Below are positions 2,043 to 28,955 of a stretch of DNA of 34,252 nucleotides, in pieces (within the stretch, counting starts at the first letter, position 1; the number at the start of each line of letters is the position of its first letter). Where the stretch lies: the NCBI GenBank assembly GCA_938010785.1, contig CALLVC010000196.1:1-34252 (forward strand), given 5' to 3'. The stretch comes from an uncultured Saprospiraceae bacterium. GTDB taxonomy: Bacteria; Bacteroidota; Bacteroidia; Chitinophagales; Saprospiraceae. The position numbers and the translations under genes were made by a program. A model generated the notes under the pieces. That model did no database searches and was not told the DNA's origin. It saw only the letters and a list, made by a program, of their open reading frames with translations.

Positions 2043-2984
2043 TTGACAACAGACATTCGACATAAAAATTCATTTCAGCGATTTACGACTAAAAATGTAC
2101 TAGTAGCTTCTATAGTAAGCATAGCTTATCTAAGTTTAGCCTACTTTTTTATAGGCTGGCGACCAGACCATTTACACTTGTGCTTGGCATCCCTAATTGC
2201 CTATTTTGCACTCCCCATCTCCCGTAAAATATTTTGGGCATTCCTATTCTTTATTATCTATTGGTTGATTTATGACTCCTTGAGAGTCTACCCAAATTAT
2301 ATGGTTAATCCTGTGAATATAGAGAGTTTATATAATTTGGAAAAGTCCATATTTGGCTTTCAAAGTCCAGAAGGCTTATTAACACCTAACGAGTATGCCA
2401 AGGCCAACTCAACTCAATTTTTAGATGTCTTAGCGCCATCTTTTTATTTAACTTGGGTGCCGCTGCCAATGTTATTTGTGATGTATTTATTTTTTACAGA
2501 CAAAACAACAATGGCTAAATTTACCTCCGCATTTTTATTAATCAATATAGTCGGCTTAATCATTTATTACCTTTACCCAGCAGCACCGCCTTGGTATGTA
2601 GAAAAACACGGGTTTGAATTTATAGAAGGTACTCCCGGCAGCGCAGCGAGACTTTTGCGGTTTGATGAATTCTGGGGCGTAGATATTTTTAAAAATATGT
2701 ATGAAAAGAATGGAAACGTTTTTGCAGCAATTCCTTCTTTACATTCTGCCTTTCCTGTGTTGTTAGTATATTATGGCATACAAAAACATCTAGTGGCAGC
2801 CTCCATTTTCTTTTTATTTATCATGCTAGGCATATGGTTTGCAGCAGTATATACCAACCATCACTATATCATTGATGTCTTTTTAGGCGGATTAACCGCA
2901 TTATTTTCCATCTTATTATTAGAAAAGGTATTGTTAAAAACAAAAATAAAAGATTGGTTAGCTAATTATATAGCCTTATTATAG
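2043..2984 (+). CDS. PAP2 superfamily / Aur1-like membrane enzyme, candidate inositol phosphorylceramide synthase (start uncertain, TTG in track)
   Basis: Multi-TM protein with YPAAPPWY, FAAIPSLHSAFP and YTNHHYIIDVFLGG (PAP2_3/Aur1-type catalytic motifs); located next to SPT and near MIPS. Confidence 0.75.
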   Translation: MTTDIRHKNSFQRFTTKNVLVASIVSIAYLSLAYFFIGWRPDHLHLCLASLIAYFALPISRKIFWAFLFFIIYWLIYDSLRVYPNYMVNPVNIESLYNLEKSIFGFQSPEGLLTPNEYAKANSTQFLDVLAPSFYLTWVPLPMLFVMYLFFTDKTTMAKFTSAFLLINIVGLIIYYLYPAAPPWYVEKHGFEFIEGTPGSAARLLRFDEFWGVDIFKNMYEKNGNVFAAIPSLHSAFPVLLVYYGIQKHLVAASIFFLFIMLGIWFAAVYTNHHYIIDVFLGGLTALFSILLLEKVLLKTKIKDWLANYIALL

Positions 2985-3123
2985 ATTTGAAAATGAAGAA
3001 ATTGATATTTTTAGGCGAAAATCAACGAATAAAACGTATTTTTGTAAATCTTTTTAAAAAAGATAGGGGAAAGCAAAATTAAAGTTGTCTTGAATTAATA
3101 ATCTATTTTCAATAAAAAAGAAC

Positions 3124-3145
3124 TAACCACTTGCATAAGTGGTTA
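3124..3145. other. Short hairpin: taaccactt-gcat-aagtggtta
   Basis: 9-bp perfect stem with 4-nt loop, in the 2985-3434 intergenic region. Confidence 0.65.
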
Positions 3146-3434
3146 TATGCAATATAGAACTATACAGAATTTATAATATAAACACATTTAGTCACCCAAA
3201 AGGTATTTGTGAAATTAGATTTATTTAAAAATAAAGTTGATTTTCAGATATTTCCTTTTAAATGCAGACCAAGCTAAAATGATAGCTGTTAGCTAATCTC
3301 TGATTGGTGAAACTCAAAAATAACTTGAATCAATTCAAATGATAAGTTGCTGTAATGATAGCAATTTTAGATTTTGAACCAGCCCGACTAGTCGTTAGGC
3401 TGGCGGGTTTTAAATTTTAGATTTCACTAGTAGC

Positions 3435-4670
3435 TTGTTTTTGGAGAACTTAACAAAAAAGAAAATGAATTTACTTCGAAACCAACTAGCGAAGTACACT
3501 CGTCCGTCTGAGGTCAAGGCAGCAGGGGTATATCCCTATTTCCGCGAAATCAGTTCAGACCAAGATACCGTTGTGAAAATGAACGGTAAAGATGTACTAA
3601 TGTTTGGTTCTAATTCCTATTTAGGATTAACCAATCACCCCAAATTAAAAGAGGCCTCCAAAGCAGCTATTGATAAATATGGATTAGGATGTGCAGGCTC
3701 TCGTTTTTTGAATGGTTCATTAGATATTCATACCGAATTAGAAGAAAAATTAGCCAAGTTTGTTGGAAAAGACGAAGCTATTGTTTTCAGTAGTGGATAC
3801 AAAGCCAACTTAGGAGCTATCTCCTCCATATTAACTCGCCACGATTATGTCATTCTAGATGATTTAAACCACGCTTGTATCATTGACGGCGCAAGATTGT
3901 CCTTTGGTAGAACGATGAAATATCGGCACAAAGACATGGCATCTTTAGAGAAAGTTTTACAAAGATGTAATGCGGACCGAGTGAAATTAATCGTCACAGA
4001 TGGTGTTTTCAGCATGGAAGGCGATATCGCACCTTTACCAGCAATGGTAGAATTGGCAAAAAAATACAATGCCAATATCATGGTCGATGATGCTCACTCC
4101 TTAGGAGTCTTGGGCAAAGGAGGTCGAGGAACCTCAGACCATTTTGGCTTAGTTGATAATGTAGATATTATTATGGGGACTTTTAGTAAGTCCTTAGCCT
4201 CTATCGGTGGTTTTATCGCAGCAGATAAAGATACCATTAACTTCATGAAGCATACCGCTCGGTCGTTCATTTTTAGTGCAAGTATAGCTCCAGCCAATGC
4301 AGCAAGTGTAATAGCAGCCTTAGATGTGATGGAAGAAGAGCCAGAAAGAATCGAAAACCTTTGGGAAAACACTCGCTATACGATGGATGCGCTTCGGAGT
4401 GTTGGCTTAGAAACAGGCCCAACAGAAACACCAATTATTCCAATTTACGTAAGAGATGATGAAAAGACTTTCATCTTAACGACAATGTTGCAGCAAGCTG
4501 GTGTTTTTGTAAATCCAGTTATTTCGCCAGCCGTAGCCAGTGAAGACTCTTTAATTAGATTTTCATTAATGGCAACGCATACCAAAGAGCAAATTGATTA
4601 CGCAGTTGACCAATTAGATAAAGTAGGGAAGCAATTAAATATTCCACGAGTCATCGCGTCACAGGTATAA
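3435..4670 (+). CDS. spt: Serine palmitoyltransferase (alpha-oxoamine synthase family, PLP-dependent)
   Basis: FGSNSYLGLTNHP, GSRFLNGSLDIHTELE, DDAHSLGVLGKGGRGTSDHFG and GTFSKSLASIGGFIA are characteristic of bacterial SPT. Start may be the in-frame ATG at 3465 (MNLLRNQL). Confidence 0.92.
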   Translation: MFLENLTKKKMNLLRNQLAKYTRPSEVKAAGVYPYFREISSDQDTVVKMNGKDVLMFGSNSYLGLTNHPKLKEASKAAIDKYGLGCAGSRFLNGSLDIHTELEEKLAKFVGKDEAIVFSSGYKANLGAISSILTRHDYVILDDLNHACIIDGARLSFGRTMKYRHKDMASLEKVLQRCNADRVKLIVTDGVFSMEGDIAPLPAMVELAKKYNANIMVDDAHSLGVLGKGGRGTSDHFGLVDNVDIIMGTFSKSLASIGGFIAADKDTINFMKHTARSFIFSASIAPANAASVIAALDVMEEEPERIENLWENTRYTMDALRSVGLETGPTETPIIPIYVRDDEKTFILTTMLQQAGVFVNPVISPAVASEDSLIRFSLMATHTKEQIDYAVDQLDKVGKQLNIPRVIASQV

Positions 4671-4681
4671 ACGAAAATAGA

Positions 4682-4839
4682 GAGGCTGTCTCATAAGTCC
4701 TTTTTTGAAAATCAGTATCAAATAAAGTACTGATTTCTTTTCTTGCACGATGCATTTCCCCCTTTGGAGGGGGTTAGGGGGAGGAAATCCACATTTTATT
4801 CGGTTTTCAAATTTTAATTTTTACTTATGAGACAGTCCC
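4682..4839. repeat. MITE-like element with ~17-bp terminal inverted repeats
   Basis: gaggctgtctcataagt (4682-4698) versus acttatgagacagtccc (4823-4839), 13 contiguous complementary bases; no ORF inside; inner hairpins atcagta/tactgat and ccccctttggaggggg. Confidence 0.65.
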
Positions 4840-4858
4840 ATTACAAAAAATATAGAAA

Positions 4859-4895
4859 ACAAATGGTAATCGAAAAATTTTCGATTACCATTTGT
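4859..4895. other. Perfect 18-bp-arm palindrome (hairpin)
   Basis: acaaatggtaatcgaaaa-a-ttttcgattaccatttgt. Confidence 0.85.
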
Positions 4896-4905
4896 GTTAT
4901 AAGTA

Positions 4906-4939
4906 CAAATTGGTAGCACTCTCGATAGCTACCAATTTG
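4906..4939. other. Second tandem hairpin, 12-bp arms
   Basis: caaattggtagc-actctcgata-gctaccaatttg. Confidence 0.85.
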
Positions 4940-4993
4940 ATTAGTAAACTGTAAAGAACGAACGAACAACCTATAAACAAGCAGCACCAACCA

Positions 4994-6112
4994 ATGCAAA
5001 TCGTAAAAGTCTCCACTAAAAAACAAAAAAAGCAATTCATTGATTTCCCGCATGACCTTTATAAAGGGGACCCCAACTATGTTCCAGAGATATATTTAGG
5101 GATGCAAGAATTGATGAATCCTAAAAAGAATCCTTTCTTTGAGCACTCCAACGCAGATTTATTTTTAGCCTTTAGAGATAAAAAAATCGTTGGTCGAATC
5201 GCGGCTATTCAGAATAATAATTACAACGAATTTGCCAATACCAATGTCGGTTATTTTGGTTTTTTTGATGTCATTAACGATTATAGTGTAGCAGAAAAAT
5301 TACTCCAAACCGTAGTCGATTGGGTAAAAGCCAAAGGACATGATGGACTATATGGTCCGACCAATTTTTCGACGAATGAAACGGCGGGGATTCTCATCAA
5401 AGGCTATGATAGACCTCCTGTCATTAACATGACTTACAATAAACCCTATTATGTTGATTTTGTAGAACGTTTTGGTTTCGAGAAACAAATGGATTTATTT
5501 GCTTATAGAATTCCGACCCAAACGGTTTCAGAAAAATCTCTACGAATTACAGAACGATTAGAAGAAAGATTGAAGGGACGAGGGATTACGATAAGAAGCG
5601 TAGTATTAAAAAATTGGGCAGAAGAGGTCAAGGTTATCCATAAGATGTATAAAAAGGCATGGGATAAAAACTGGGGGTTTGTGCCACCTACGGATAAGGA
5701 GTTTGACCATTTAGCAGATAGTTTAAAAATGATATTGGTACCAGAAATGGTCTTTGTCGCTGAAAAGGACGGAAAAGGAATAGGCTTTTTCTTAGCGGTG
5801 CCGAACATTAACGAAATCATGATAAAGCAGAAGCGAGGAAGAATTTTACCTTTCGGGGCTATCCGCTTATTAATGGGTAAACGAAAAACAAAAATCCTAA
5901 GAATCATACTTCTAGGCGTAGAAGATGAATACCGAAGACTTGGTATAGAAGCTATTTTTTACTCCAAAATAATTCGCTATGCCCAAAATAATGGCATCGA
6001 ATTCGGAGAAGGCTCTTGGATTTTGGAAAATAATGAAATGATGAATAAGGGCTTGCAAAATCTGAATGGCGAGGTTTATAAAACTTATCGGATTTATCAG
6101 AAAGATGTTTGA
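4994..6112 (+). CDS. GNAT-fold acyltransferase-like protein, candidate bacterial ceramide synthase (bCerS-like)
   Basis: 372-aa protein with GNAT-like features (FVAEKDGKGIGFFLAVPNINE, LGVEDEYRRLGIEAIFYSKIIRYAQNNG) between spt and a CerR-like gene. Confidence 0.65.
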   Translation: MQIVKVSTKKQKKQFIDFPHDLYKGDPNYVPEIYLGMQELMNPKKNPFFEHSNADLFLAFRDKKIVGRIAAIQNNNYNEFANTNVGYFGFFDVINDYSVAEKLLQTVVDWVKAKGHDGLYGPTNFSTNETAGILIKGYDRPPVINMTYNKPYYVDFVERFGFEKQMDLFAYRIPTQTVSEKSLRITERLEERLKGRGITIRSVVLKNWAEEVKVIHKMYKKAWDKNWGFVPPTDKEFDHLADSLKMILVPEMVFVAEKDGKGIGFFLAVPNINEIMIKQKRGRILPFGAIRLLMGKRKTKILRIILLGVEDEYRRLGIEAIFYSKIIRYAQNNGIEFGEGSWILENNEMMNKGLQNLNGEVYKTYRIYQKDV

Positions 6113-6116
6113 TTTT

Positions 6117-6158
6117 TTAGTGGTGAGTGATGAGTGATGAATTATGAGTGATGCGTAC
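6117..6158. repeat. Degenerate 7-nt-period array (TGAGTGA-type)
   Basis: TTAGTGG TGAGTGA TGAGTGA TGAATTA TGAGTGA TGCGTAC read in consecutive heptads. Confidence 0.8.
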
Positions 6159-6228
6159 TGCCTCAAGTCAATTCTAAATAAAAAAGAAACGCCACCTGCC
6201 ACAACCCAATATCTAAAACACACCATAA

Positions 6229-6322
6229 GAAACATTGGTAACAGAGGACATCAAATAAAATGGTCCCATAGGGACCTAACATCGGTAACAAAGATGGTCC
6301 CGTAGGGACAAAACATTGGTAA
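6229..6322 (+). repeat. Hairpin + AACATYGGTAA repeat cluster
   Basis: aaACATTGGTAAc (about 6230-6241); GGTCCCATAGGGACC (6262-6276) + taACATCGGTAAc; GGTCCCGTAGGGAC (6296-6309) + aaAACATTGGTAAt. Confidence 0.75.
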
Positions 6323-6331
6323 TCATAGGTA

Positions 6332-6919
6332 ATGAATCAAGAAAGTAGAGGAATATGGGAATGGGACATCGTAAAATATGTAACCATCTTTTCCATAGGA
6401 CTATATACAGCGTTTTTTGTACTAGGTGGTTTCACAGAAGAAAGCACTCGAATGGCTATAGCGTGGTCCGCTAAGATTAGCTTTTTATTATTCTGTATGG
6501 CATTTGCCGCTTCGGCAGCACATAAACGCATTAAAAATTCGCTTTCTTTTTGGTGGTTGATGAATCGCAAATACTTTGGAATTTCCTTTGCGATTAGTCA
6601 TCTTATCCATTTAGGCTTTTTAGTGGTATTGCAACAGGTTTTCCATCCAGTTTTTAATATTGCGGCATCGATTTCACTAATTGCAGGAGGAGGAGTTTAT
6701 TTTTTTGTCGTCCTGATGTTGTTGACATCTTTTGAGACTTTTTCCAACTATTTATCTCGGAAAAACTGGAAGTTATTACATACGATTGGAGGCTATTGGA
6801 TTTGGGTTATTTTTCTAAGTACTTATGTTAAAAAAGTAATGAATGTAGGGGCGGAGTTCATACCATTTGTCTTGCTATTGATAATCGTATTAATCATCCG
6901 TTTACTGCCAAAAAAATGA
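6332..6919 (+). CDS. Ferric reductase-like / MsrQ-like heme transmembrane protein
   Basis: Polytopic protein with NRKYFGISFAISHLIHLGFL and SRKNWKLLHTIGGYWIWVIFLSTY, resembling the heme-ligand helices of YedZ/MsrQ-type proteins. Confidence 0.6.
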   Translation: MNQESRGIWEWDIVKYVTIFSIGLYTAFFVLGGFTEESTRMAIAWSAKISFLLFCMAFAASAAHKRIKNSLSFWWLMNRKYFGISFAISHLIHLGFLVVLQQVFHPVFNIAASISLIAGGGVYFFVVLMLLTSFETFSNYLSRKNWKLLHTIGGYWIWVIFLSTYVKKVMNVGAEFIPFVLLLIIVLIIRLLPKK

Positions 6920-6937
6920 ATATCGATACGCAATCAC

Positions 6938-7954
6938 TTGATTTTAAAGATAAAACTAAATATGCAAAAAATACTCATTACAGGCGCAAGTGGATTTGTT
7001 GGAAGTTTTTTGGTAGAAGAAGCCTTAAAGCGAGGTTTAGAAGTATATGCTGGTGTGAGAAAAACGAGCAGTCGTAAATATCTACAAGATGACCGCATTC
7101 AGTTTTTGGAATTGGATTTTAATAAGCTAGACCAAGTCCATGCCCAATTAGCAGCTGTAAAATTTGACTATGTGATTCACAATGCGGGGGTCGTAAAAGT
7201 TGATAAAAAGAAAGATTTTTTCACTTATAATACAAAATTAACGACAGATTTTGCCTCCGTATTAATGGATTTACAGCCTGATTTAAAAAAATTCACTTAC
7301 ATCAGTAGTGCTGCTGCTTATGGACCAGCAGATAATTTATCGAAAGGGTATGTGGAAGAATCAGACAATCCGACACCGATAGATACCTATGGAGAAAGTA
7401 AGTTAGCTGCAGAAAAATGGTTAAAAGGGCAATCAAATTTTCCCTATTTAATCTTCCGTCCAACAGGGGTTTATGGTCCTAGAGAAACCGAAATTTTCAC
7501 TTTTTTCAAAGCATTTAATCAAGGATTGGAAGGACACATAGGGAGAACTCCACAGAAAATGGCATTCATTTATGTGAAAGATTTAGCAAAGGTTGTTTTA
7601 GATGGCACACTTTCAAAAAAAACGCAGAAAAGTTATTTCGTTTCGGATGGTAATGCCTATCCAACCCAAGATTTAGGAAAATATGCAGCAAAATATTTAG
7701 AAAAAAAACCATTTTTAAAAATCAATATTCCAATCGGTGTTGTTGCTGTCATAGCTAGTATTGGCGAGGGTGTTGGCCGCTTAACCGGCAAAATGCCCGT
7801 GCTCAATAAAGAGAAGGTAAAAATATTAAAATCAAAAAATTGGCAGGTAGACATTGTACCTTTGCAAAATGATTTTAACTTTGCCCCCGCTTATGACCTA
7901 GAATCAGGTCTTTTAGAAACTATACAATGGTATAAGGAGAACAAATGGCTTTAA
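6938..7954 (+). CDS. NAD(P)-dependent epimerase/dehydratase (extended SDR), candidate ceramide reductase (CerR-like); ATG at 6962 (MQKILITG) is the more likely start
   Basis: ITGASGFVGSFLVEEALKRG Rossmann motif; YGESKLAAE catalytic YxxxK; FRPTGVYGPRE. Genomic context with spt. Confidence 0.8.
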   Translation: MILKIKLNMQKILITGASGFVGSFLVEEALKRGLEVYAGVRKTSSRKYLQDDRIQFLELDFNKLDQVHAQLAAVKFDYVIHNAGVVKVDKKKDFFTYNTKLTTDFASVLMDLQPDLKKFTYISSAAAYGPADNLSKGYVEESDNPTPIDTYGESKLAAEKWLKGQSNFPYLIFRPTGVYGPRETEIFTFFKAFNQGLEGHIGRTPQKMAFIYVKDLAKVVLDGTLSKKTQKSYFVSDGNAYPTQDLGKYAAKYLEKKPFLKINIPIGVVAVIASIGEGVGRLTGKMPVLNKEKVKILKSKNWQVDIVPLQNDFNFAPAYDLESGLLETIQWYKENKWL

Positions 7955-7956
7955 TT

Positions 7957-7991
7957 TAGTGATGAGTTGTGAGTGATAAGTGCTGAGTATT
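7957..7991. repeat. 7-nt-period array, left arm of an inverted pair
   Basis: TAGTGAT GAGTTGT GAGTGAT AAGTGCT GAGTATT. Confidence 0.75.
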
Positions 7992-8097
7992 TAATATGCT
8001 TAAACTTTAGCTTTAATCTCATCATTATTTATCCGACAGAATTTGGGAATTTTATTTTGTGTGAAGTTTTGCGTGATTAGTTAGTAGTGCTTTTTTA

Positions 8098-8132
8098 CAC
8101 TCATAACTCATCACTCACCGCTCATCACTATT
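8098..8132. repeat. 7-nt-period array, right arm of an inverted pair
   Basis: CACTCAT AACTCAT CACTCAC CGCTCAT CACTATT, imperfectly complementary to 7957-7991. Confidence 0.75.
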
Positions 8133-8164
8133 TTATTCCACTTTTTTAAAAATTAAACAAAAGA

Positions 8165-9484
8165 ATGGCAGAGAAGACAAAACTCAAATCCGCTAAAGGT
8201 AAATTGGGCGTTTTAACTCCTGGAATGGGGGCTGTAGCAACGACTTTTATTGCTGGTGTTATCGCCGTGAGAAAAGGATTAGCTCAACCTTTTGGTTCTT
8301 ACACTCAAATGGGAAGAATCAGACTAGGAAAAAGAACAGAGAAGCGTTACCCCAAAATCAAAGAATTTGTTCCTTTATCCTCATTGGACGATATGGTTTT
8401 CGGAGGATGGGATGTTTACAAAGACAATGTTTACAAAGCATCTGTAAAAGCAGAGGTTTTAGATAAGCGTCTTTTGGACGAAATCAAAGATGAATTGAAA
8501 GCTATCAAGCCAATGAAGGCTGTTTTTGACAAAAACTATGTCAAAAGATTAGATGGCAAGCATGTCAAAAAAGGCAAAACCAAAATGGATTTGGCTAAAG
8601 CATTGATGAAAGACATGGAAAATTTCAAAAAAGAACATGGCTGTGACCGTTTAGTTATGGTTTGGTGTGGTTCTACTGAAATTTATATGGAAGAATCAGC
8701 TTGTCATAAAAACATCAAGGCGCTAGAAAAGGGCTTAAGAGAAAATGATGAGAACATTCCGCCAAGTATGATTTATGCCTATGCGGCTATCAAAATGGGC
8801 GTACCTTATGCAAATGGAGCACCGAACTTATCGGCTGATATTCCAGCATTAGTAGACTTAGCAAAGAAGAATGGTGTGCCAGTCGGTGGAAAAGACTTCA
8901 AGACAGGTCAAACCTTAATGAAGACTATCTTAACACCAGGTTTTAAAGCTCGTTCTTTAGGTGTAGATGGATGGTTCTCTACGAACATTTTAGGAAATAG
9001 AGATGGTGCAGTATTAGATGACCCTGATAACTTCAAAACTAAGGAAGTTTCTAAACTAGGGGTAATCGAGCATATCTTACAACCTGATTTAAATCCTGAA
9101 CTATACGGTAATATCTACCACAAGGTAAGAATCAACTATTACCCACCACGTGGTGATAATAAGGAAGGTTGGGATAATATTGATATTTCTGGTTGGTTAG
9201 GCTATCCAATGCAAATTAAAGTAGATTTCTTGTGTAGAGATTCTATTTTAGCAGCACCAATCGTGTTGGACTTAGCTTTATTATTGGATTTAGCGAGTCG
9301 TTCTTCTATTATGAAAGGAGGTATTCAAGAATACCTTGGCTTCTTCTTTAAGTCGCCTCAGACTAAGAAAGGATTGCCACCACAGCATGATTTATTCAAG
9401 CAATTGATGAAAATTAATAACACACTTCGTCATATTAAGGGTGAGGATTTAATCACTCACTTGGGACTAGATTATTATTACTAG
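8165..9484 (+). CDS. Myo-inositol-1(3)-phosphate synthase
   Basis: MIPS-like core: TPGMGAVATTFIAGV, NGAPNLSADIPALVDLAKKNGVPVGGKDFKTGQTLMKTILTPGFKARSLGVDGWFSTNILGNRDG. Confidence 0.92.
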   Translation: MAEKTKLKSAKGKLGVLTPGMGAVATTFIAGVIAVRKGLAQPFGSYTQMGRIRLGKRTEKRYPKIKEFVPLSSLDDMVFGGWDVYKDNVYKASVKAEVLDKRLLDEIKDELKAIKPMKAVFDKNYVKRLDGKHVKKGKTKMDLAKALMKDMENFKKEHGCDRLVMVWCGSTEIYMEESACHKNIKALEKGLRENDENIPPSMIYAYAAIKMGVPYANGAPNLSADIPALVDLAKKNGVPVGGKDFKTGQTLMKTILTPGFKARSLGVDGWFSTNILGNRDGAVLDDPDNFKTKEVSKLGVIEHILQPDLNPELYGNIYHKVRINYYPPRGDNKEGWDNIDISGWLGYPMQIKVDFLCRDSILAAPIVLDLALLLDLASRSSIMKGGIQEYLGFFFKSPQTKKGLPPQHDLFKQLMKINNTLRHIKGEDLITHLGLDYYY

Positions 9485-9662: not shown

Positions 9663-10511
9663 ATGAATATTGATTACCTATGCATTGGACATGTTTGCCA
9701 AGATATTATCAAAAAAGGCTATGCACTTGGCGGTTCCGCTTCTTATTGTAGTATTGCAGCTACTTTTTTAGGCAAAAAAGCTGGAATTCTTACTAGCCAC
9801 AGTGATAACTTTCAATTTCTTCCTGCTTTCCAAGATATTGCTATTCATAATATAAAGGCTGAACAGACCACTATTTTTGAAAACGTCTACCATTCTACTC
9901 ACCGTACTCAATATCTTTTCGAGCGAGCGGAAACTATCCTTTTAAAAGATTTACCACCTACTTTAAATAATGTTGGACTCGTTCATTTAGCACCAATCGC
10001 TGATGAAGTGGATTTTGCCTTTAAAAATGCCTTCCATTCAGATACCATTATTGCTGCGACTCCACAAGGTTGGATGCGGCAATGGGATGAAAAAACTAGA
10101 GAAGTGAGTCCCAAAGTGATGGATTGGAGTTTATTAAATGGTATTGATATTTTAATTTTAAGTGATGAGGATATTGCGGGTTATGAACACTTATTTCCAA
10201 AAATTATTGAGCAAACTAAAATAGTTGTAATGACAAGAGGCGGGCAACCTGCCACAGTTTACTTTGACAAAAAACAATTAGATTTTCCTGTGTATCCTGC
10301 TGAGATTGTTGACCCAACAGGTGCGGGAGATACCTTTGCCACAGGTTTTTTAGTAAAATATTTAGCAACCAAAGATATAGGCCAAGCGATGGCTTATGGT
10401 CATGTGGTCGCTTCTTTTTGCATTGAAGAAAAAGGCCTAGAGGGATTGAAAAATTTGGAAAAAGTAGAAGAACGATTCAAAGAATATTTAGAGAAAGTAG
10501 GCCGCAAGTAA
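9663..10511 (+). CDS. PfkB-family carbohydrate/inositol kinase
   Basis: LGGSASYCSIAATFLG and VDPTGAGDTFATGFLVKYL (PfkB signature 2). Confidence 0.85.
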   Translation: MNIDYLCIGHVCQDIIKKGYALGGSASYCSIAATFLGKKAGILTSHSDNFQFLPAFQDIAIHNIKAEQTTIFENVYHSTHRTQYLFERAETILLKDLPPTLNNVGLVHLAPIADEVDFAFKNAFHSDTIIAATPQGWMRQWDEKTREVSPKVMDWSLLNGIDILILSDEDIAGYEHLFPKIIEQTKIVVMTRGGQPATVYFDKKQLDFPVYPAEIVDPTGAGDTFATGFLVKYLATKDIGQAMAYGHVVASFCIEEKGLEGLKNLEKVEERFKEYLEKVGRK

Positions 10512-15658: not shown

Positions 15659-15801
15659 AACCGATTAGTTAGGTCCCCCAATGACGCACAATTCCATCAT
15701 ACTTAATAACCGTCAACCTGACTTTTGAAGTCAAGTAGTCCTAAAAGTAATCTGCTTTTAAAAACAACTACGACTGACTTTGAAGATTGAAACGTATCAC
15801 T

Positions 15802-18800
15802 ATGACAAACAACTTTCCCAAGTACTGGAAAATCCCTCTTGCTATTCTGTTCGCTTTTACTATAAAGGCTACACCCCTCTATGCCCAAATAGAAATAGAA
15901 CCTGCCGTAACCTATCCTTTTACCCCGAAAAATTTGATAGAGAATGTCTTTTTAGGCGATGGTGTCAAAATTACAAACATTCAATTTAATGGAGAACCAA
16001 GAGCTTTAGGGTATTTCTCACATGGTATGAACGAGATTGGTTTTGAAGAAGGGCTTTTGTTAACGACAGGCGAAGCTTTTCAAGCAGATAGACCAAACGT
16101 TAATGAAGGATTGGGAGCAGAAAATCAAAGTACCGCTGTAAGTCCAGAATTAGAAGCTTTATCATCTTTTGAAGTAAAAGATGTCTTAGAATATGTGATA
16201 ACTTTTATACCAACCACAGATTCAGTAGAATTTAAATATAGATTTGCCTCAGAAGAATATCCCGAATTTAGTATTGACTGCTTCCATGATGTGTTCGGAT
16301 TCTTTATTTATGGTCCCGGCATTGCTCCAGAAGGTCAAAATATGGCAATTGTGCCAGGCACAAATTTACCTGTTTCTGTAAATACTATCCATCCTATGGA
16401 TACGGACTTAACAAATGGAGCAAACTGTCCAACACTTCCACCAAATGAAGCTAAAAATGAACATTTGTATAATGACAATGCTGGTAGTCAGTTTTTAGAA
16501 TATGATGGATTTACAAACACCCTATATGCCAAATCAAAAGTAACCCCTTGTCAAGAATATACCTTAAAGTTAGTTATAGCAGATGTACGAGATGGGTTAT
16601 ATGATTCCGCCGTGTTTTTAGAATCAAGAAGTTTTAGTTCGAGTAATTTTGAAACCAATTTAGCTGGAATCGGATTAGATGGAAGTATTGTAGAAGGCTG
16701 TTCTGGTGCAGATTTAGTATTTAGTATTCCTGCTCCAAGAACGGAAGATTATGAAATAAATTTTGTTAAAATTGGAACTGCAACAGTTGACGAAGATTTT
16801 AACGATTTTCCCAATTCAGTAGTCATACCCGCAGGAGAACTTAGCGCATCATTTTCCATAGAAGCCTTAAAAGATGACGAAGTAGAAGCCAATGATTCAA
16901 TTGGTATCGAAATTCAAATTGCCCAGTGTTTATCTGATACTATTTGGATTCCTATAAAAGATGCTCAACTAGAACTTCCTGATTTAGGAGATGATTTACA
17001 AATTTGCGCAGGCGATAGTGTTCAATTATTAGGCATCTCAACAAATGGTGCCATAGACAGTATTATCCCTTTTAATATACAACCAACTGATATCGGAACA
17101 CAAATTAAAGAAGTCCAAGAAGACCGAACGGAACTAGCCAATGATGAACCCTCTCTTTTTACGATAGAAGTCAAAGATATAAAACCAGCAGAAGTGGTCC
17201 CTGGACTCATTCATTCCGTATGCATTAACATCAACCACGCACGGGTTAATCAATTGGATGTCTTCTTACAATCACCAAGTGGTCGTTTTATCGAATTAAC
17301 TACAGATAATGGAACATTAGGGAATAACCACTACGAAGAAACCTGCTTCAAACCTGTTGCATCTACTAAGATTACAGATGGAGAAGCTCCTTTTACGGGA
17401 GACTTTTTACCAGAAGGAAACTTTGCAGATTTTTATGGAAATAAAGTAAATGGCACATGGACACTTATCGTGCGAGATGACACGGGTATTGGTGGCTCTG
17501 ACCCCAAAGGAACTATGCTACACTGGTCCATTAATTTCAACAACGATTATAGAGTAAATTATGAGTGGGAACAAGCTGACAGTATGTCTTGTATAGATTG
17601 TCCAAACCCAAGTGTTTTTCCAGCTGAAACGACAAAATACGTCATAAAAGCTACAGATAGCTACGGCTGTTCTGCCAGTAATGACATTACCGTAAATGTC
17701 CAGCAACCTTTAGGTAAGCCTGAGCCTACCTGTGGTAATGTATCTAAAAATGCCATAACAGTTGAATGGAGACCAGTAGTCGGCGCACTTAGTTATGACG
17801 TAAATGTCGATAAAAAAGGCTGGGAACCTGCCAATTCAGGAAATCTTCAACATAAAATTACAGGGCTAGATGAAGGCCAAGAAGTATCCGTAGATGTACG
17901 TGCTAATTCAAGTGGAACTTGTTCTGAATCTGCCAATTTTGTAAGTTGTAGAACCGCGGCTTGCGTTGTTCCTTCACCAGAAGAAGATAGCCTCACCAAC
18001 GTTAGTTGCAATGGCGGGTCTGATGGTCAAATTACGATTTCTACACCTATCGATGCCTATTTTATTTTAGGAAATGACACCAGTCAATTAGGACAAACCG
18101 CTACTTTTGACGCCTTACCTCAAGGCACTTATAAAATTCACGTTTTTGAGTCTACTATGACCTGTAGCGATTCTTTAAAATTTACCATAAACGAACCAAC
18201 TAAAGTTAATTTACAAATATTAGATAGCCAACCGCTTACTTGTTTTGGTGTAAATGATGGATTGATTTCCGTGGAAGGAAGTGGTGGTGAAGGTGCTTAT
18301 ACATACAGTTGGACTAACTTAGCGGACTCAACCTTCACCGCAACTGATTTAACTAGTATAAACACCTTAACCAAAGGAGAATATGATATAATTGTAAGAG
18401 ATACCAATGATTGTACCGACCAAAAATTTGTTACGATTTCGGAACCACCAGCTATGATTCTTGATTCTATCAGTAATGATGAATCTTGTTTTAATAATCA
18501 AGATGGCAGTATATCTGTTAATGCAAATCCAATCTATAATAATCTTACGTTCAATTGGGATAATGGAGAAAAAACAGCGGCTATAAATAATTTATCTAGT
18601 GGAAATTATACGGTCACGGTTAGAAACGATGCAGCAGGATGTGAAGAAAAAAGAAGTTTTACCATCAATACCCCACCAGCAATTAATCTGACTGAAGTAA
18701 GCACAAAACCAGAAAGCTGTACAAACAAAGGTGACGGTTCCATCACCGTATTAGCAGAGGGTGGCATGGGTGGTTTCAACTATGCATGGAATGATGACCA

Positions 18801-20604
18801 AAATCAAACCGCCGCCACAGCAACCAATCTCCACGCAGAAAACTATGTCGTGATTGCCATGGACGAAACAGGATGCACTAAAAATTTGGTAGTGATGTTA
18901 GACGCCTTAACCGATATTTCAATAGATACGGCGTTACAAGGGGTGAGTTGTTTTGGGCGAACAGACGGTCAAGTAGCATTAAGGATTGCAGGAGGAACGC
19001 CAAACTACGCTATAGAATGGAGTGATAATGAGGGGCAAGATGCAGAGGAGCGTACCAATTTAGCAGCAGGAGATTATCAAGTAATCGTCTCAGACCTAAA
19101 TAATTGTTCTACCACTTTAGATTTTACAATTACTGATAAAGCAGAAATAAATTTAAGGACTACACCAACTTTAGCTAGTTGTAATGGCTCAGATGGAAGC
19201 ATTACTGTAGCTGTCGTTGATGGCATTGGAAATTACAGCTACCAATGGGTAGATGATGCAACTAGAACAAGCTCCACAGCAGAAAATTTACCTAAAGGAG
19301 ACTACACTATAACCGTGCTTGATGAAGCGGGATGTTCCTCTACCGCAACCATTACATTAGAAGAAAAAGAAGGCGTTCAATTAGTCACATCTGCAACGCC
19401 AATTCTTTGTGCAGGGGAAACGAATGGAACAGCACGTGTTGAAGCAAGGGGGGGAATTGGCGCTTATCAATATCAATGGAATGACTTGGCCAAAACAAAT
19501 CAATCAACCGCTCAAAATTTAGCGGCAGGAGATTATACAGTTGTAGTAATAGACGACTTAGGATGTGAAGCATCAGAGACTGTGACTATTGTGGATAACT
19601 CTATTGCAGTAAATCTAAGATTAGAAAAAAGCGATATTAGCTGTTTTGGTATGGTAGATGGTCAAATCACCAGTAAAATTGCGGATGGCATTTCAAATTT
19701 AAATTATCAATGGTCTAATGGTCAAACCAGCCCTAACCTTAGTAATCTTCCAGCAGCCGACTATGAATTAGTGCTTACAGATGCTAATAATTGTGAACAT
19801 ACCGAAAGCATTAGTATTTCAGAACCTGAGGAATTATTTGTTGAAACCATGTTGGACTCGATAAGTTGTCCGGGTGATAGAGATGGTGTCTTTAGAATGC
19901 TCCCTACAGGTGGAACAGCTCCATATTCCTATAGTGTAGATGGCAATCGCTATTCTCCTTCGAGTGAATTCAGTAATCTACGACCAGGCAAATATGAACC
20001 CGCTTTTAGAGACGCCAATAACTGTGTAGTTCCTATTGAACCTTTTGAATTAGCAGAAGCACTGCCATTAAGTATTACTTTAGATAATTTGAAATTGGAA
20101 GAAAATGAGCCTACAGAAATTAATCCAATCATAAATAATGGTAAAGGAGAAATTACTTACATTTGGTCAGGACATAATCTAACAGATTTAAGTTGTACCG
20201 ATTGTCCCAATCCATTAATCACTCCTACCAATGCACAATTATATACCCTACAAGTCATTGATGAGGTAGGATGTGAAGCGGATGCTCGCTTCAGAGTATT
20301 GGTAGAAAAAAACAGAAAAATATACGTCCCCACAGGTTTTTCACCTAATCTAGATGGAATAAATGACAAATTAACTGTTCATGGAGTAGAAGGTACGGAA
20401 ATCTTATCTTTTAAAATTTTTGACCGTTGGGGAGAACTAGTTTTCAGCGGGCAACCTTTTATGGCCAATGATGAATCAGCAGGATGGGATGGCAATTTCA
20501 GAGGAAAACCGATGACGACCAATGTTTTTGCATGGATTGTAGAAGCTCGTTTTACAGATGGAACCGTTAAGATGGTTAAGGGGAATTCGACCTTAATACG
20601 GTGA
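15802..20604 (+). CDS. Giant T9SS-secreted adhesin-like protein: signal peptide, choice-of-anchor L, Calx-beta-like, P/proprotein convertase domain, FN3-like, ~9 SprB-type repeats, gliding-motility-associated C-terminal (type B) domain
   Basis: FRFASEEYPEF...DVFGFFIYGPG (choice-of-anchor L); LDVFLQSPSGRFIELTTDNG...GTWTLIVRDDTG (P domain); repeats of xSCxGxxDGxIxVxxxGGxxxYxYxW...DYxVxVxDxxGC; C-terminus YVPTGFSPNLDGINDKL...FKIFDRWGELVFSG...GWDGNFRGKPM. Track start is TTG 15787; ATG 15802 precedes the signal peptide. Confidence 0.9.
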   Translation: MTNNFPKYWKIPLAILFAFTIKATPLYAQIEIEPAVTYPFTPKNLIENVFLGDGVKITNIQFNGEPRALGYFSHGMNEIGFEEGLLLTTGEAFQADRPNVNEGLGAENQSTAVSPELEALSSFEVKDVLEYVITFIPTTDSVEFKYRFASEEYPEFSIDCFHDVFGFFIYGPGIAPEGQNMAIVPGTNLPVSVNTIHPMDTDLTNGANCPTLPPNEAKNEHLYNDNAGSQFLEYDGFTNTLYAKSKVTPCQEYTLKLVIADVRDGLYDSAVFLESRSFSSSNFETNLAGIGLDGSIVEGCSGADLVFSIPAPRTEDYEINFVKIGTATVDEDFNDFPNSVVIPAGELSASFSIEALKDDEVEANDSIGIEIQIAQCLSDTIWIPIKDAQLELPDLGDDLQICAGDSVQLLGISTNGAIDSIIPFNIQPTDIGTQIKEVQEDRTELANDEPSLFTIEVKDIKPAEVVPGLIHSVCININHARVNQLDVFLQSPSGRFIELTTDNGTLGNNHYEETCFKPVASTKITDGEAPFTGDFLPEGNFADFYGNKVNGTWTLIVRDDTGIGGSDPKGTMLHWSINFNNDYRVNYEWEQADSMSCIDCPNPSVFPAETTKYVIKATDSYGCSASNDITVNVQQPLGKPEPTCGNVSKNAITVEWRPVVGALSYDVNVDKKGWEPANSGNLQHKITGLDEGQEVSVDVRANSSGTCSESANFVSCRTAACVVPSPEEDSLTNVSCNGGSDGQITISTPIDAYFILGNDTSQLGQTATFDALPQGTYKIHVFESTMTCSDSLKFTINEPTKVNLQILDSQPLTCFGVNDGLISVEGSGGEGAYTYSWTNLADSTFTATDLTSINTLTKGEYDIIVRDTNDCTDQKFVTISEPPAMILDSISNDESCFNNQDGSISVNANPIYNNLTFNWDNGEKTAAINNLSSGNYTVTVRNDAAGCEEKRSFTINTPPAINLTEVSTKPESCTNKGDGSITVLAEGGMGGFNYAWNDDQNQTAATATNLHAENYVVIAMDETGCTKNLVVMLDALTDISIDTALQGVSCFGRTDGQVALRIAGGTPNYAIEWSDNEGQDAEERTNLAAGDYQVIVSDLNNCSTTLDFTITDKAEINLRTTPTLASCNGSDGSITVAVVDGIGNYSYQWVDDATRTSSTAENLPKGDYTITVLDEAGCSSTATITLEEKEGVQLVTSATPILCAGETNGTARVEARGGIGAYQYQWNDLAKTNQSTAQNLAAGDYTVVVIDDLGCEASETVTIVDNSIAVNLRLEKSDISCFGMVDGQITSKIADGISNLNYQWSNGQTSPNLSNLPAADYELVLTDANNCEHTESISISEPEELFVETMLDSISCPGDRDGVFRMLPTGGTAPYSYSVDGNRYSPSSEFSNLRPGKYEPAFRDANNCVVPIEPFELAEALPLSITLDNLKLEENEPTEINPIINNGKGEITYIWSGHNLTDLSCTDCPNPLITPTNAQLYTLQVIDEVGCEADARFRVLVEKNRKIYVPTGFSPNLDGINDKLTVHGVEGTEILSFKIFDRWGELVFSGQPFMANDESAGWDGNFRGKPMTTNVFAWIVEARFTDGTVKMVKGNSTLIR

Positions 20605-24605: not shown

Positions 24606-27600
24606 ATGCGACATTTAGCATGCCTACTTTTGTTATTCTTTTGCTTGCTTTCAACTACTTTTTCTCAAAATAGTGAGGATTGCGTGGATGCTCGTCCGCT
24701 TGCTCCGACTACACCAATATTACTTTCTGATTTACCTGATATTACCATTGATTCCGTAATTGGAGCGGGAACAGAACCCGCTGAGTGGTTTATGGATACT
24801 GAAATGAACTGTGGTACAGATAGAGCTTTTTTTGCTACTCCAAATGATAAATCTTTTTGGTTTGTTTTTTCAGCAGAAACGAGTGGAAGCTTAGAGTTAC
24901 TAATCACACCCGAAAATCGTGGAACATCGTATGATTTTGCAATATGGAGAGGCGGTTGTCCCAATGATAACTTTTGTGGAGAACTATTCTACTGTAATTT
25001 TACAGGTATTGAGGTATGTGATGGTAATTTTGCACCTGTAGGAGCAAGTACAGACCCTGTAAATAAATTTGGTTATGACCCAATAGCGGACCTTAATCTT
25101 TTTGTATATCCAGAATCAATTTCTTTAGAAGCTGGAGAAAATTATTACCTTTTAGTACAAAATACCGACAAAGCAGGTAACTCAATTTGTTCTCCCCCTT
25201 TAGAAAACGATAGTTTAGGTTTCACCATTCAATTTGACGGGACAGCGACCATCGGTCCAGAAATATTGCATCAAGACCCTTTACCAATATTACCAACCCC
25301 AGTAACGGATACGCTTTTTAATTGTGAAGGAGATGTTCAAACTTTTGCTGTTTCACAAGTACAGTTTGCCACTACTTACGATTGGATTTCTAAATCAACA
25401 ATGCCAGGGTCAACTATTATACCAAATGCATTAGGAGATAGTGTTACCGTTCAATTCGGAGCAACTTCAGGGCAAATTTGTATGGAAATGATTTGTCCCA
25501 TACAAAGTTTGATTTGTTGGAATATCGATATAGAAATAAAACCAAGTTTATCGGCAATACCTAATCCAATTCCATCCTGCGACCCTGTAGATTTGAATAC
25601 CCGATTTCAAGATATAAATAACGTTTCTGACGCAAGGGTCGATTTTTTTACTACACAACAAGACGCAGTAAATGACATCAATTCGATGGCTTCAAGTATA
25701 GTTTCGGTATCGGACAGGTATTGGGTAAGAAAGACCACACCAAATGGTTGTTGGCACCTTGCGGAAATGAATGTTTTAGTAGATCTAATTGATTTTTCAA
25801 CAGCAGACACTTTAAGATACTGTACCCAAACTCAAAATTTTGCTAATCTGCAAGACGAATTACTTTTTATCAATCTAAATCAAGACGGTGGTGACCTTAT
25901 TTATTCATATTACGAAGACAGCTTAGAGGCAGTCAATAGAACCAATCCGTTTTGGCCTCCAATAGCTGATGCAAATGCTACTTATTGGGTAAGAGCTGAA
26001 AAACAAGCAGGAGGTCCATGTTTTCAAGTTGAGAAAGTAGTTTTTGTAATTGAAGATTCTCCAGAAATTGCCCCTATCCCTGACCAAGATATTTGTGGAG
26101 GAACTTGTTTTGAATTATCAGATTTAAATTTAGAAAATACGGATGGTCAACCATTAACAGGATTTGATTTATCCTTTTATTTATCAGAAGCAGAGGCAGA
26201 AGCAGGAAATGTTGCCGATGCGCTTGGTAATGAGGTGTGTCTTAGTGATACCTATTGGATAAGAGCCGCAAGTTCACAATCTTGTTTTGCGGTTGCTCCT
26301 TTTACCATTAATTTATTTACTGCTCCTGATATTGACGATTTAACTATAGATTTAGATTGTGCAGTTGGAGCTATCGACCTTGCAGCCCAACAATTCGTAG
26401 AGAAAAATGGAATAGCTGCAAGCAGTTTATCCTTCGATTATTTTGCAACTTTAGCTGAGGCCGAAGATTTAACAGCTACGCCCCTGACAGATTTAAATAT
26501 TTCTACCCCAACGGATGTTTGGGTAAGAGTGACCAACACAGATAACAATTGTACCGATGTAGCCCAAGTGTCTATTCAAGGCATGTCTTTGGGAACAGCG
26601 ACCATCTCTGGCGACGCCCTTATTTGTGCAGGAGACCCAACTAATCTACAAATTGATTTAACCGGAGCTGCTCCTTTTAATATAAGCTATACGGATGGGG
26701 TCAATGTTTATGACACCATCTCTCCAACTACTAATTTACTTATTCCAATAACAGCTGATACTACTATCACATACACCTTGGTTTCCGTTCAAGATGGCAA
26801 TGGTTGTGCAAATATGGTAGATGGTGCAGCGGTAATTACAGTGAATGGCAGGCCAGTGATTACTACTCCTTCTCAGGACTGTAATACAACCGCAACAGAA
26901 TATACCTTAACTTTTGATATTATAGGAACAGACAATTATCAGGTGTTAAGCCTAGATGGAACCCGAACTGGAAATACGTTTGTCAGTGAAGAGATTGCCA
27001 GTGGAGCTGTCTTTGATTTTCAAGTAATTGGAGACAACAGTTGTGCCCCGCTCGTCGTATCGGTTAACTTCAGCTGTGAATGTAATTCCGTAGTTGGTGG
27101 TATGGATTTTCTGCCCATCAATGTTTGTGATACAGAACTTGCTACTGGTAATTACCTTGGAGAAAATGGACAAAATTTAGACAAAGAAGATATTCTGTAC
27201 TATGTATTGCATGATAGTCCAACGGATGAATTAGGCAATGTAGTAGATTTCAAAGAAGACGCCAATTTCACCTTTGACCCAAACACCATGACACATGGTA
27301 CCACCTACTATATATCCGCTGTAATCACCAAAGCAGATATGCTAGGAAATCCAATTTTAAGTGCCGCAAACAATCCTTGTATGGCAGTTTCGGTAGGACA
27401 ACCCGTCACTTTCTACTCTATCCCCGAAGTTTCCCTAAGCCTCTCTAATTCAACTGTTTGCAAAGGAGATATGAGCTTTTTAACCTTTAATATCACAGGA
27501 GTTGGTCCAACCTACGACATTACCTTTTTCAATGGAGAATCTTCTCAAACATTAATGGGAATAAGCGATGGAGAAACTGTTCCAATTGCCACCGATGCAA

Positions 27601-28955
27601 GTACTAGCTTATTTGTACAATCCATTAATCAAAGTGGCGTATTGACTTGTTCGGATATGCCACTACGCATGGACCATGAAATTGAATTAACGGTTATTGA
27701 TGTACCTACAATTTTTAATTCTGAGGTTCATTGTAATGAGGAAGGGTCTATGCTAGTCCTTACTTTTGAATTAACAGGTGGGCTCGTTGATTCCTATGCC
27801 TTATCCAGTTCAAGTACCATTACTGGTAGTTTTAAAGGCACCGTCTTTACTTCAGATTCTATTCCTCATAATACCCCTTATACGGTAAGTTTTGTAGACG
27901 CCAATCAATGTGGTGAAACCGAAGTAGTAGGTATAGCTGAATGTCTATGTACTTCAGATATCACTGTTGCCATTGAAACGCTCAAGGGCGTTTCCTGTCG
28001 GGGTGAAAAAGATGCCGTGCTATTGGCAACACCTATTAATGGAGCCGCTCCCCTCACCCTTTTTTGGAGTACTGGCGCATCCTCTGAAAGAGTCAACAAC
28101 ATTGCGGCGGGAGTAACGAGTGTTACCATGACAGATGGAAACGGATGTGTTCGAGTAGATTCAATTGATTTAATAGAGCCAGAAAGTCTTACTGCCTCGC
28201 TTAATGGTTTATCCCCAAGTTGTAATGGCGAACAGGATGGTTCCATAGTAATCGTCCAAGCAGAAGGTGGCACAGAACCATATACCTATTCTTTTAGAGG
28301 AGGCCCCTTTGAAGAATTTAGCATCCGAAATGACCTATCTATAGGCGTTTACCCTATAATAATTAGAGATAATAATGGCTGTGAATGGTCAGAAGATGTC
28401 GTACTAACAGACCCACCAGTATTTGACGTTTCTTTACCAATGAATACAGATGTCAACTTAGGAGAAAGCATAGATTTAACTCCACAAGCCAACGAAGAAA
28501 TAATTGCCATAACTTGGGAAAGTACAGACACTAGTATCTGTGCGGATTGTCTGAATCCTATTGTAACACCGACTAAATCTACCAGCTACAAGGTCACCGT
28601 GATGAATGAATCAGGCTGTGAAGCAACTGACCAAATAGTCGTTCGAGTTAGTAATAGTAATTTAGTATATATTCCTTCGGCATTCTCTCCTAATGGAGAT
28701 GGTTCCAATGATTTATTAAGGCCTTTCGGTAGTTCAGCAGTACAAGAAATCAATATGTTTCGGGTATTCAACCGTTGGGGTGAACTGATGTATGAAAAGA
28801 AAGACATGGACATGAACTCAAATATTGAAGGTTGGAATGGAAATACCATGTCTGGCAGAAAAGCCCCTCCAGGTGTTTATCTATATTTTGCTGAGGTCGC
28901 TTTCAAGAATGGAACGGCAGAAATGGTATCTGGTGATGTGAGTTTGGTGCGATAG
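24606..28955 (+). CDS. Giant T9SS-secreted protein with two SprB-type repeats and gliding-motility-associated C-terminal domain
   Basis: Signal peptide MRHLACLLLLFFCLLSTTFSQ; VSCRGEKDAV... and PSCNGEQDGSIVIVQAEGGTEPYTY repeats; C-terminus YIPSAFSPNGDGSNDLLRPFG...FRVFNRWGELMYE...GWNGNTMSGRKAPPGVYLY. Confidence 0.9.
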   Translation: MRHLACLLLLFFCLLSTTFSQNSEDCVDARPLAPTTPILLSDLPDITIDSVIGAGTEPAEWFMDTEMNCGTDRAFFATPNDKSFWFVFSAETSGSLELLITPENRGTSYDFAIWRGGCPNDNFCGELFYCNFTGIEVCDGNFAPVGASTDPVNKFGYDPIADLNLFVYPESISLEAGENYYLLVQNTDKAGNSICSPPLENDSLGFTIQFDGTATIGPEILHQDPLPILPTPVTDTLFNCEGDVQTFAVSQVQFATTYDWISKSTMPGSTIIPNALGDSVTVQFGATSGQICMEMICPIQSLICWNIDIEIKPSLSAIPNPIPSCDPVDLNTRFQDINNVSDARVDFFTTQQDAVNDINSMASSIVSVSDRYWVRKTTPNGCWHLAEMNVLVDLIDFSTADTLRYCTQTQNFANLQDELLFINLNQDGGDLIYSYYEDSLEAVNRTNPFWPPIADANATYWVRAEKQAGGPCFQVEKVVFVIEDSPEIAPIPDQDICGGTCFELSDLNLENTDGQPLTGFDLSFYLSEAEAEAGNVADALGNEVCLSDTYWIRAASSQSCFAVAPFTINLFTAPDIDDLTIDLDCAVGAIDLAAQQFVEKNGIAASSLSFDYFATLAEAEDLTATPLTDLNISTPTDVWVRVTNTDNNCTDVAQVSIQGMSLGTATISGDALICAGDPTNLQIDLTGAAPFNISYTDGVNVYDTISPTTNLLIPITADTTITYTLVSVQDGNGCANMVDGAAVITVNGRPVITTPSQDCNTTATEYTLTFDIIGTDNYQVLSLDGTRTGNTFVSEEIASGAVFDFQVIGDNSCAPLVVSVNFSCECNSVVGGMDFLPINVCDTELATGNYLGENGQNLDKEDILYYVLHDSPTDELGNVVDFKEDANFTFDPNTMTHGTTYYISAVITKADMLGNPILSAANNPCMAVSVGQPVTFYSIPEVSLSLSNSTVCKGDMSFLTFNITGVGPTYDITFFNGESSQTLMGISDGETVPIATDASTSLFVQSINQSGVLTCSDMPLRMDHEIELTVIDVPTIFNSEVHCNEEGSMLVLTFELTGGLVDSYALSSSSTITGSFKGTVFTSDSIPHNTPYTVSFVDANQCGETEVVGIAECLCTSDITVAIETLKGVSCRGEKDAVLLATPINGAAPLTLFWSTGASSERVNNIAAGVTSVTMTDGNGCVRVDSIDLIEPESLTASLNGLSPSCNGEQDGSIVIVQAEGGTEPYTYSFRGGPFEEFSIRNDLSIGVYPIIIRDNNGCEWSEDVVLTDPPVFDVSLPMNTDVNLGESIDLTPQANEEIIAITWESTDTSICADCLNPIVTPTKSTSYKVTVMNESGCEATDQIVVRVSNSNLVYIPSAFSPNGDGSNDLLRPFGSSAVQEINMFRVFNRWGELMYEKKDMDMNSNIEGWNGNTMSGRKAPPGVYLYFAEVAFKNGTAEMVSGDVSLVR

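Follow-up and report, generated by a model that had tools for sequence, protein, structure and literature searches.

The gene cluster examined here is read, from its genes and with a probability of roughly 85%, as a chromosomal locus for inositol phosphorylceramide (IPC), probably with a 2-hydroxylated acyl chain. The window analyzed, i.e., positions 1 to 34,252 of contig CALLVC010000196.1 of an uncultured Saprospiraceae bacterium (assembly GCA_938010785.1; 617 contigs, 88.75% complete), would with the same probability hold the downstream two-thirds of this locus. Five pathway open reading frames (ORFs) lie at 2043-9484, all on the + strand, encoding in this order an AUR1-like PAP2 protein, a serine palmitoyltransferase (SPT), a GNAT-type acyltransferase, an extended short-chain dehydrogenase/reductase (SDR), and a myo-inositol-phosphate synthase (MIPS). 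A previous sequence-only reading had placed these five genes side by side; their coordinates and families were borne out, with family matches obtained for all five proteins in hidden Markov model searches (Pfam, NCBIfam). Its listing was incomplete in that a sixth + strand ORF, located at 6332-6919 between the GNAT and SDR genes, had been overlooked.

The function proposed in that reading, building ceramide and equipping it with an inositol-phosphate head group, is supported by gene identities, motifs, adjacency, and conservation, on which the following predictions of activities, order of steps, and end product are based. SPT would convert serine and an acyl thioester into 3-ketosphinganine, the GNAT would act as bacterial ceramide synthase (bCerS) to N-acylate this intermediate, and the SDR would then, as a CerR, reduce the ketone to yield dihydroceramide, acylation thereby preceding reduction in the order proposed for Caulobacter (PMC11087976). 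MIPS would convert glucose-6-phosphate into myo-inositol phosphate, to be coupled to CDP-diacylglycerol by a BT_1523-like phosphatidylinositol-phosphate synthase (PIPS) encoded upstream, and a PgpA-type phosphatase encoded elsewhere in the genome would yield phosphatidylinositol (PI). The AUR1-like PAP2 protein would move phosphoinositol from PI onto (dihydro)ceramide, while the amide-linked chain would be hydroxylated by an SCS7/FA2H-like enzyme that is likewise encoded upstream.

Predicted ceramide backbone genes

The SPT (3435-4670) passes its curated model NF047600 with 673 bits (cut-off 640), and its kinship to serine palmitoyltransferase is closer than that to KBL, BioF, and cysteate acyltransferase. 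Within the PDB, Sphingobacterium-type SPTs (8guh/3a2b) were matched with E = 4e-150 and cysteate acyltransferase with E = 7.5e-73, and identity to the SPTs of Saprospiraceae relatives amounts to 70-91%. Judged by sequence and alignments, the likely starts of the SPT and of the SDR (6938-7954) are the ATGs at 3465 and 6962, respectively, instead of the TTGs of the mechanically called ORFs.

The GNAT (4994-6112) is predicted to be a bCerS-type ceramide synthase. It matches Acetyltransf_1 (Pfam, E = 2e-8) and its structural model (pLDDT 85) depicts a tandem GNAT; a sequence search of the PDB returned merely weak, generic acetyltransferase matches. The bCerS-like assignment made earlier is supported by full-length homology (34-36% identity) to GNATs of Roseomonas, Diaphorobacter, and Rahnella, which are located in Caulobacter-type sphingolipid clusters on Proteobacterial plasmids. 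The likeness to Caulobacter itself is drawn from these three loci together with the published gene order of CC_1152-CC_1168, in which CC_1155/1156 represent LptG2/LptF2, CC_1153 encodes a nucleotidyltransferase, and dihydroceramide is not made without CC_1154 (PMC11324152). Correspondingly, the GNAT gene of Roseomonas marmotae (locus L129) is flanked by LptF/LptG genes on one side and by a nucleotidyltransferase gene on the other, and the cluster also comprises SPT, an acyl carrier protein, an acyl-AMP ligase, a CDP-alcohol transferase, a lipid kinase, and an epimerase-type SDR, and this arrangement matches the one described for Caulobacter.

The SDR, a predicted CerR-type 3-keto-ceramide reductase, belongs to the Epimerase family (Pfam, E = 5e-33) and contains both the cofactor motif and the catalytic YxxxK. 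It groups with the SDRs of related operons (35-56% identity), and in these relatives the SDR gene directly follows the GNAT gene. A Rubrobacter plasmid likewise has SPT-GNAT-SDR. No close paralogue of SPT, GNAT, or SDR was detected within the genome of the window organism.

In the related operons, the ceramide-synthase slot hosts two deeply split GNAT types of ~30% identity, as observed with the GNAT genes of L043, L046, L069, L044, L102, and L113. As the SDRs of L043, L046, and L069 group with that of the window while their GNAT is of the other type, a replacement of the ceramide synthase inside the operon is suggested. Matches from plasmids include two further full-length relatives (~34%) of the ceramide-synthase GNAT, namely YghO of E. 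coli and an N-acetyltransferase of Klebsiella. On plasmid pAUEa of Aureispira anguillae (L034, Saprospiraceae), there is another SPT-GNAT pair, separate and more distant, accompanied by an SDR on the opposite strand.

Predicted head-group and hydroxylase genes across two contigs

The AUR1-like PAP2 protein (2043-2984) is well supported as the predicted IPC (PI-dihydroceramide) synthase transferring phosphoinositol from PI to ceramide; its namesake AUR1 is the fungal IPC synthase and a drug target. Besides PAP2_3 (Pfam, E = 3e-21), its sole NCBIfam match is NF052609, "phosphoinositol dihydroceramide synthase" (E = 2e-90, 303 bits at a cut-off of 480). A profile built from 13 PAP2 relatives retrieved AUR1 as the sole match from the PDB (E = 9e-29, residues 27-289), with the sphingomyelin-synthase-related protein matching the PAP2 protein much more weakly than AUR1, and the AlphaFold2 model (pLDDT 82) gave significant fold matches only to the IPC synthase structures 9vj4 and 9ivc. 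The PSxH ... HHYxxD motifs, providing the catalytic His-His-Asp, are present in all 92 homologues. The AUR1-only profile matches and the IPC synthase fold thus support the role of head-group transferase previously given to this protein. No AUR1 partner subunit Kei1 turned up, no search having been aimed at it. MIPS (8165-9484) contains both MIPS domains, PF07994 (E = 2e-102) and PF01658, its top PDB match being 7nwr (E = 1e-160).

No CDP-alcohol phosphatidyltransferase had been visible to the sequence-only reading, which is correct for the window but not for the genome, where five were found, the PIPS being encoded just upstream of the window. The first 141 bases of the window are identical to the end of a second contig of the same genome, C322, and occur on no other contig among those available for this genome; the junction is an assembly overlap and not a read-through contig. 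In the same direction as the window, C322 encodes a DUF5686 protein, the BT_1523-like PIPS (approximately -1321 to -599 relative to window base 1), and the SCS7/FA2H-like hydroxylase ending at window base 168. The transferase was seemingly missing because the contig edge falls there. The PIPS scores 347 bits against NF052561, the model of the BT_1523 PIPS (cut-off 350), with other models being far lower; its closest PDB relatives are PIP/PI synthases, and the motif DxxDGxxAR...GxxxDxxxD is kept in 74 of 74 homologues. A CDP-alcohol transferase on contig C165 was assigned by eye as phosphatidylserine synthase.

A PgpA homologue adjoins a GtrA homologue on contig C429, the counterparts of BT_1525 and BT_1524. 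Hence, as in the BT_1522-1526 cluster of B. thetaiotaomicron, MIPS, PIPS, GtrA, the PgpA-type phosphatase, and the AUR1-like PI-dihydroceramide synthase all occur together in one genome, and every gene of the B. thetaiotaomicron route has a homologue when window, C322, and C429 are combined. Chemistry other than the Bacteroides route, which had been considered earlier, was rejected: with a PIP synthase encoded on the overlapping contig nothing points to it, and the head-group chemistry is most likely that of Bacteroides.

The hydroxylase, whose final 55 codons and stop form window bases 1-168, has a length of 217 aa and matches FA_hydroxylase (Pfam, E = 3e-17); the top match of its copy in locus L022 is SCS7 (E = 4e-34), the fungal ceramide 2-hydroxylase. 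SCS7-type His clusters are found in 53 of 53 homologues, the one of the window organism included. Based on this homology and on the overlap of its gene with the PAP2 gene in relatives, the SCS7-like protein probably 2-hydroxylates the amide-linked chain. Across the contig overlap, the order reads DUF5686, PIPS, SCS7-like hydroxylase, [alginate lyase, orphan], PAP2, SPT, GNAT, [membrane protein], SDR, MIPS, with the bracketed genes being intruders treated below.

Gene order in relatives and in known systems

For analysis of conservation, 80 loci were collected as the best PAP2 matches from a scan of named genomes with a PAP2 alignment; being selected in this way and in many cases related, they do not provide independent counts. 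When only the 55 loci with a length of 20 kb or more are considered, 40 contain SPT, GNAT, SDR, MIPS, PIPS, and PAP2 together, in most cases collinear and frequently with gene overlaps. The synteny of the window is thus kept in dozens of other genomes, which places the clustering beyond chance. The collinear one-strand cluster has the order SPT-GNAT-SDR-MIPS-PgpA-GtrA-DUF5686-PIPS-(DUF4833)-(hydroxylase)-PAP2 with single-gene losses and was observed in Pontibacter, Rufibacter, Pedobacter, Mucilaginibacter, Chitinophagaceae, Ferruginibacter, Chryseosolibacter, Ohtaekwangia, and Cyclobacteriaceae; metagenome-assembled genomes labelled Bacteroidales show a second gene order. Median gaps of -4 bp (SPT-GNAT and GNAT-SDR), 0 (MIPS-PgpA), and -9.5 bp (hydroxylase-PAP2) are as expected for an operon with coupled translation. 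The Saprospiraceae loci nearest to the window (L041, L042) read DUF5686-PIPS-hydroxylase-PAP2-SPT-GNAT-SDR-MIPS, and in the nearest relative found (L038; PAP2 81%, SPT 91% identical) the stretch DUF5686-PIPS-hydroxylase-PAP2-SPT is contiguous. Distribution of the PAP2 gene is patchy: of 120 genomes from the order, 12 possess it, and a phylum-wide sample of 395 genomes yielded 14.

DUF5686 recurs inside the operon in 63 and DUF4833 in 29 of the 80 loci, and both possibly have lipid transport or envelope roles; a literature search found no report tying either to sphingolipid synthesis. In locus L117, a contig labelled Desulfobacterales, MIPS, PIPS, and PAP2 stand together, for which either mis-binning of the contig or gene transfer across phyla would account.

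In B. thetaiotaomicron, the inositol steps were worked out by knocking out BT_1522, 1523, 1525, and 1526; they lead from the MIPS product via phosphatidylinositol-phosphate diacylglycerol (PIP-DAG) and PI-DAG to PI-dihydroceramide, with the Aur1-like transferase BT_1522 as a known step (PMC9246714, PMC8791184). A CarboxypepD_reg protein lies nearby in both systems (DUF5686 here, BT_1527 there). Unlike in B. thetaiotaomicron, where the SPT BT_0870 lies elsewhere, SPT, GNAT, SDR, and the SCS7-like hydroxylase share the locus here. The 3-ketosphinganine reductase BT_0972 of that organism is a ~31 kDa SDR that was picked by similarity to eukaryotic KDSR and is not clustered with SPT (PMC9278070).

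With Caulobacter crescentus (CC_1152-CC_1168; PMC11324152, PMC11087976) the cluster shares the combination of SPT, GNAT ceramide synthase, and epimerase-type reductase, whereas it contains neither an acyl carrier protein nor an acyl-AMP ligase and its predicted head group is inositol instead of ceramide phosphoglycerate. As acyl hydroxylation in Caulobacter is assigned to the DesA-type CC_0202 (PMC11324152), the SCS7-like enzyme would be a different solution. Regarding the fungal enzymes, the PAP2 protein aligns with AUR1 and shares its fold, and the hydroxylase resembles SCS7 in alignment and His clusters but is too short for the cytochrome b5 domain; the ceramide, by contrast, would stem from bacterial enzymes unrelated to those of fungi.

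What is new is that a single locus combines the known inositol-lipid route with the GNAT/SDR ceramide route and mostly also includes a fungal-type hydroxylase. Bacterial inositol sphingolipids have so far been dissected mainly in gut Bacteroides, with the pathway scattered over several loci, and a recent paper restates that sphingolipid producers among the Bacteroidota have SPT, bCerS, and CerR at a distance from each other (PMC11334938). By comparison, numerous environmental members of the phylum have the entire predicted route in one collinear locus with overlapping genes, which links inositol head-group genes with the GNAT ceramide synthase and the CerR-type reductase and names a candidate 2-hydroxylase of a type other than that of Caulobacter. 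Moving one operon would make the whole pathway testable, and the fungal drug target AUR1 gains simple bacterial relatives. The further-reaching notion of a complete, translationally coupled bacterial operon for 2-hydroxylated IPC, with its AUR1- and SCS7-like enzymes belonging to the lineage that gave fungi their IPC synthase and ceramide hydroxylase, is in our view unlikely.

Competing explanations and remaining features of the window

Several points weigh against IPC as the product. Both the PAP2 protein and the PIPS miss their NCBIfam equivalog cut-offs and are consequently described as working like the B. thetaiotaomicron enzymes, not as curated equivalogs. The PgpA homologue may be an ordinary phosphatidylglycerophosphate phosphatase, and Flectobacillus major, despite its predicted capacity, was an exception in a thin-layer chromatography survey (PMC9246714). 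The SDR is 25% identical to Rahnella CerR and equally 25% to a paralogue of its own genome; of the earlier CerR-like assignment, the epimerase type and the position beside SPT and GNAT stand, while the long-branched tree neither supports nor contradicts a grouping with Proteobacterial CerR.

Among the alternatives, the best surviving one, albeit quite improbable, assumes the same ceramide backbone with PAP2 moving another phosphate head group, so that MIPS and PIPS only supply PI or other inositol compounds. Four loci (L043, L045, L046, and L069) with PAP2-SPT-GNAT-SDR and no MIPS or PIPS nearby favor this explanation, as do the solitary PAP2 genes of L023, L024, and L029-L032 and the sub-threshold PAP2 score; against it, PIPS adjoins or nearly adjoins PAP2 in 68 of the 80 loci and MIPS in 54, and profile and fold of the PAP2 protein are AUR1-specific.

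Very improbable is a locus decaying in this species, in which intruders separate the genes, co-expression is lost, and the pathway is perhaps inactive. Ahead of PAP2, an alginate-lyase-like lipoprotein (253-1191, +; PF08787) and an orphan membrane protein without family (1232-1885, +) fill positions 169-2042 between hydroxylase and PAP2, where L038 has ~245 bp and neither gene; the 195-aa membrane protein (6332-6919) separates GNAT and SDR, and gaps of ~200-450 bp are found where the genes of relatives overlap. In contrast, all enzyme ORFs are intact and well conserved with their motifs kept, and own promoters are possible for individual genes. Compared with shuffled sequence, the region showed no excess of promoter-like sites. 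A sulfonolipid (capnine) or other amino-lipid route, brought to mind by the homologous first enzyme of the sulfonolipids found in Bacteroidota (PMC9304779), was rejected as the least probable of all, the SPT lying above its own cut-off and far nearer to solved SPTs than to cysteate acyltransferase, next to a homologue of the ceramide-acting IPC synthase.

The preferred IPC assignment leaves the intruders outside the pathway. C322 and the window part in the assembly at the edge of the 169-2042 insertion, which may indicate that strains with and without it coexist. The 6332-6919 protein has no family match and no copy in the 80 related loci; its candidacy as a pathway member was rejected in view of homologues lying away from sphingolipid genes elsewhere, and it is probably a passenger. 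For the PfkB kinase at 9663, matched by PfkB models in its C-terminal part alone, a role in the pathway as inositol kinase was rejected, since none of the 80 loci has a homologue. A 22-base inverted repeat recurs in two intergenic gaps of the cluster (6119-6140 and 8101-8122), and the SPT-GNAT gap hosts a long, perfect-looking hairpin (4853-4901). Further downstream, 15787-20604 and 24606-28955 encode large surface proteins with SprB repeats and CHU_C, a type IX secretion signal, as are typical of Bacteroidota.

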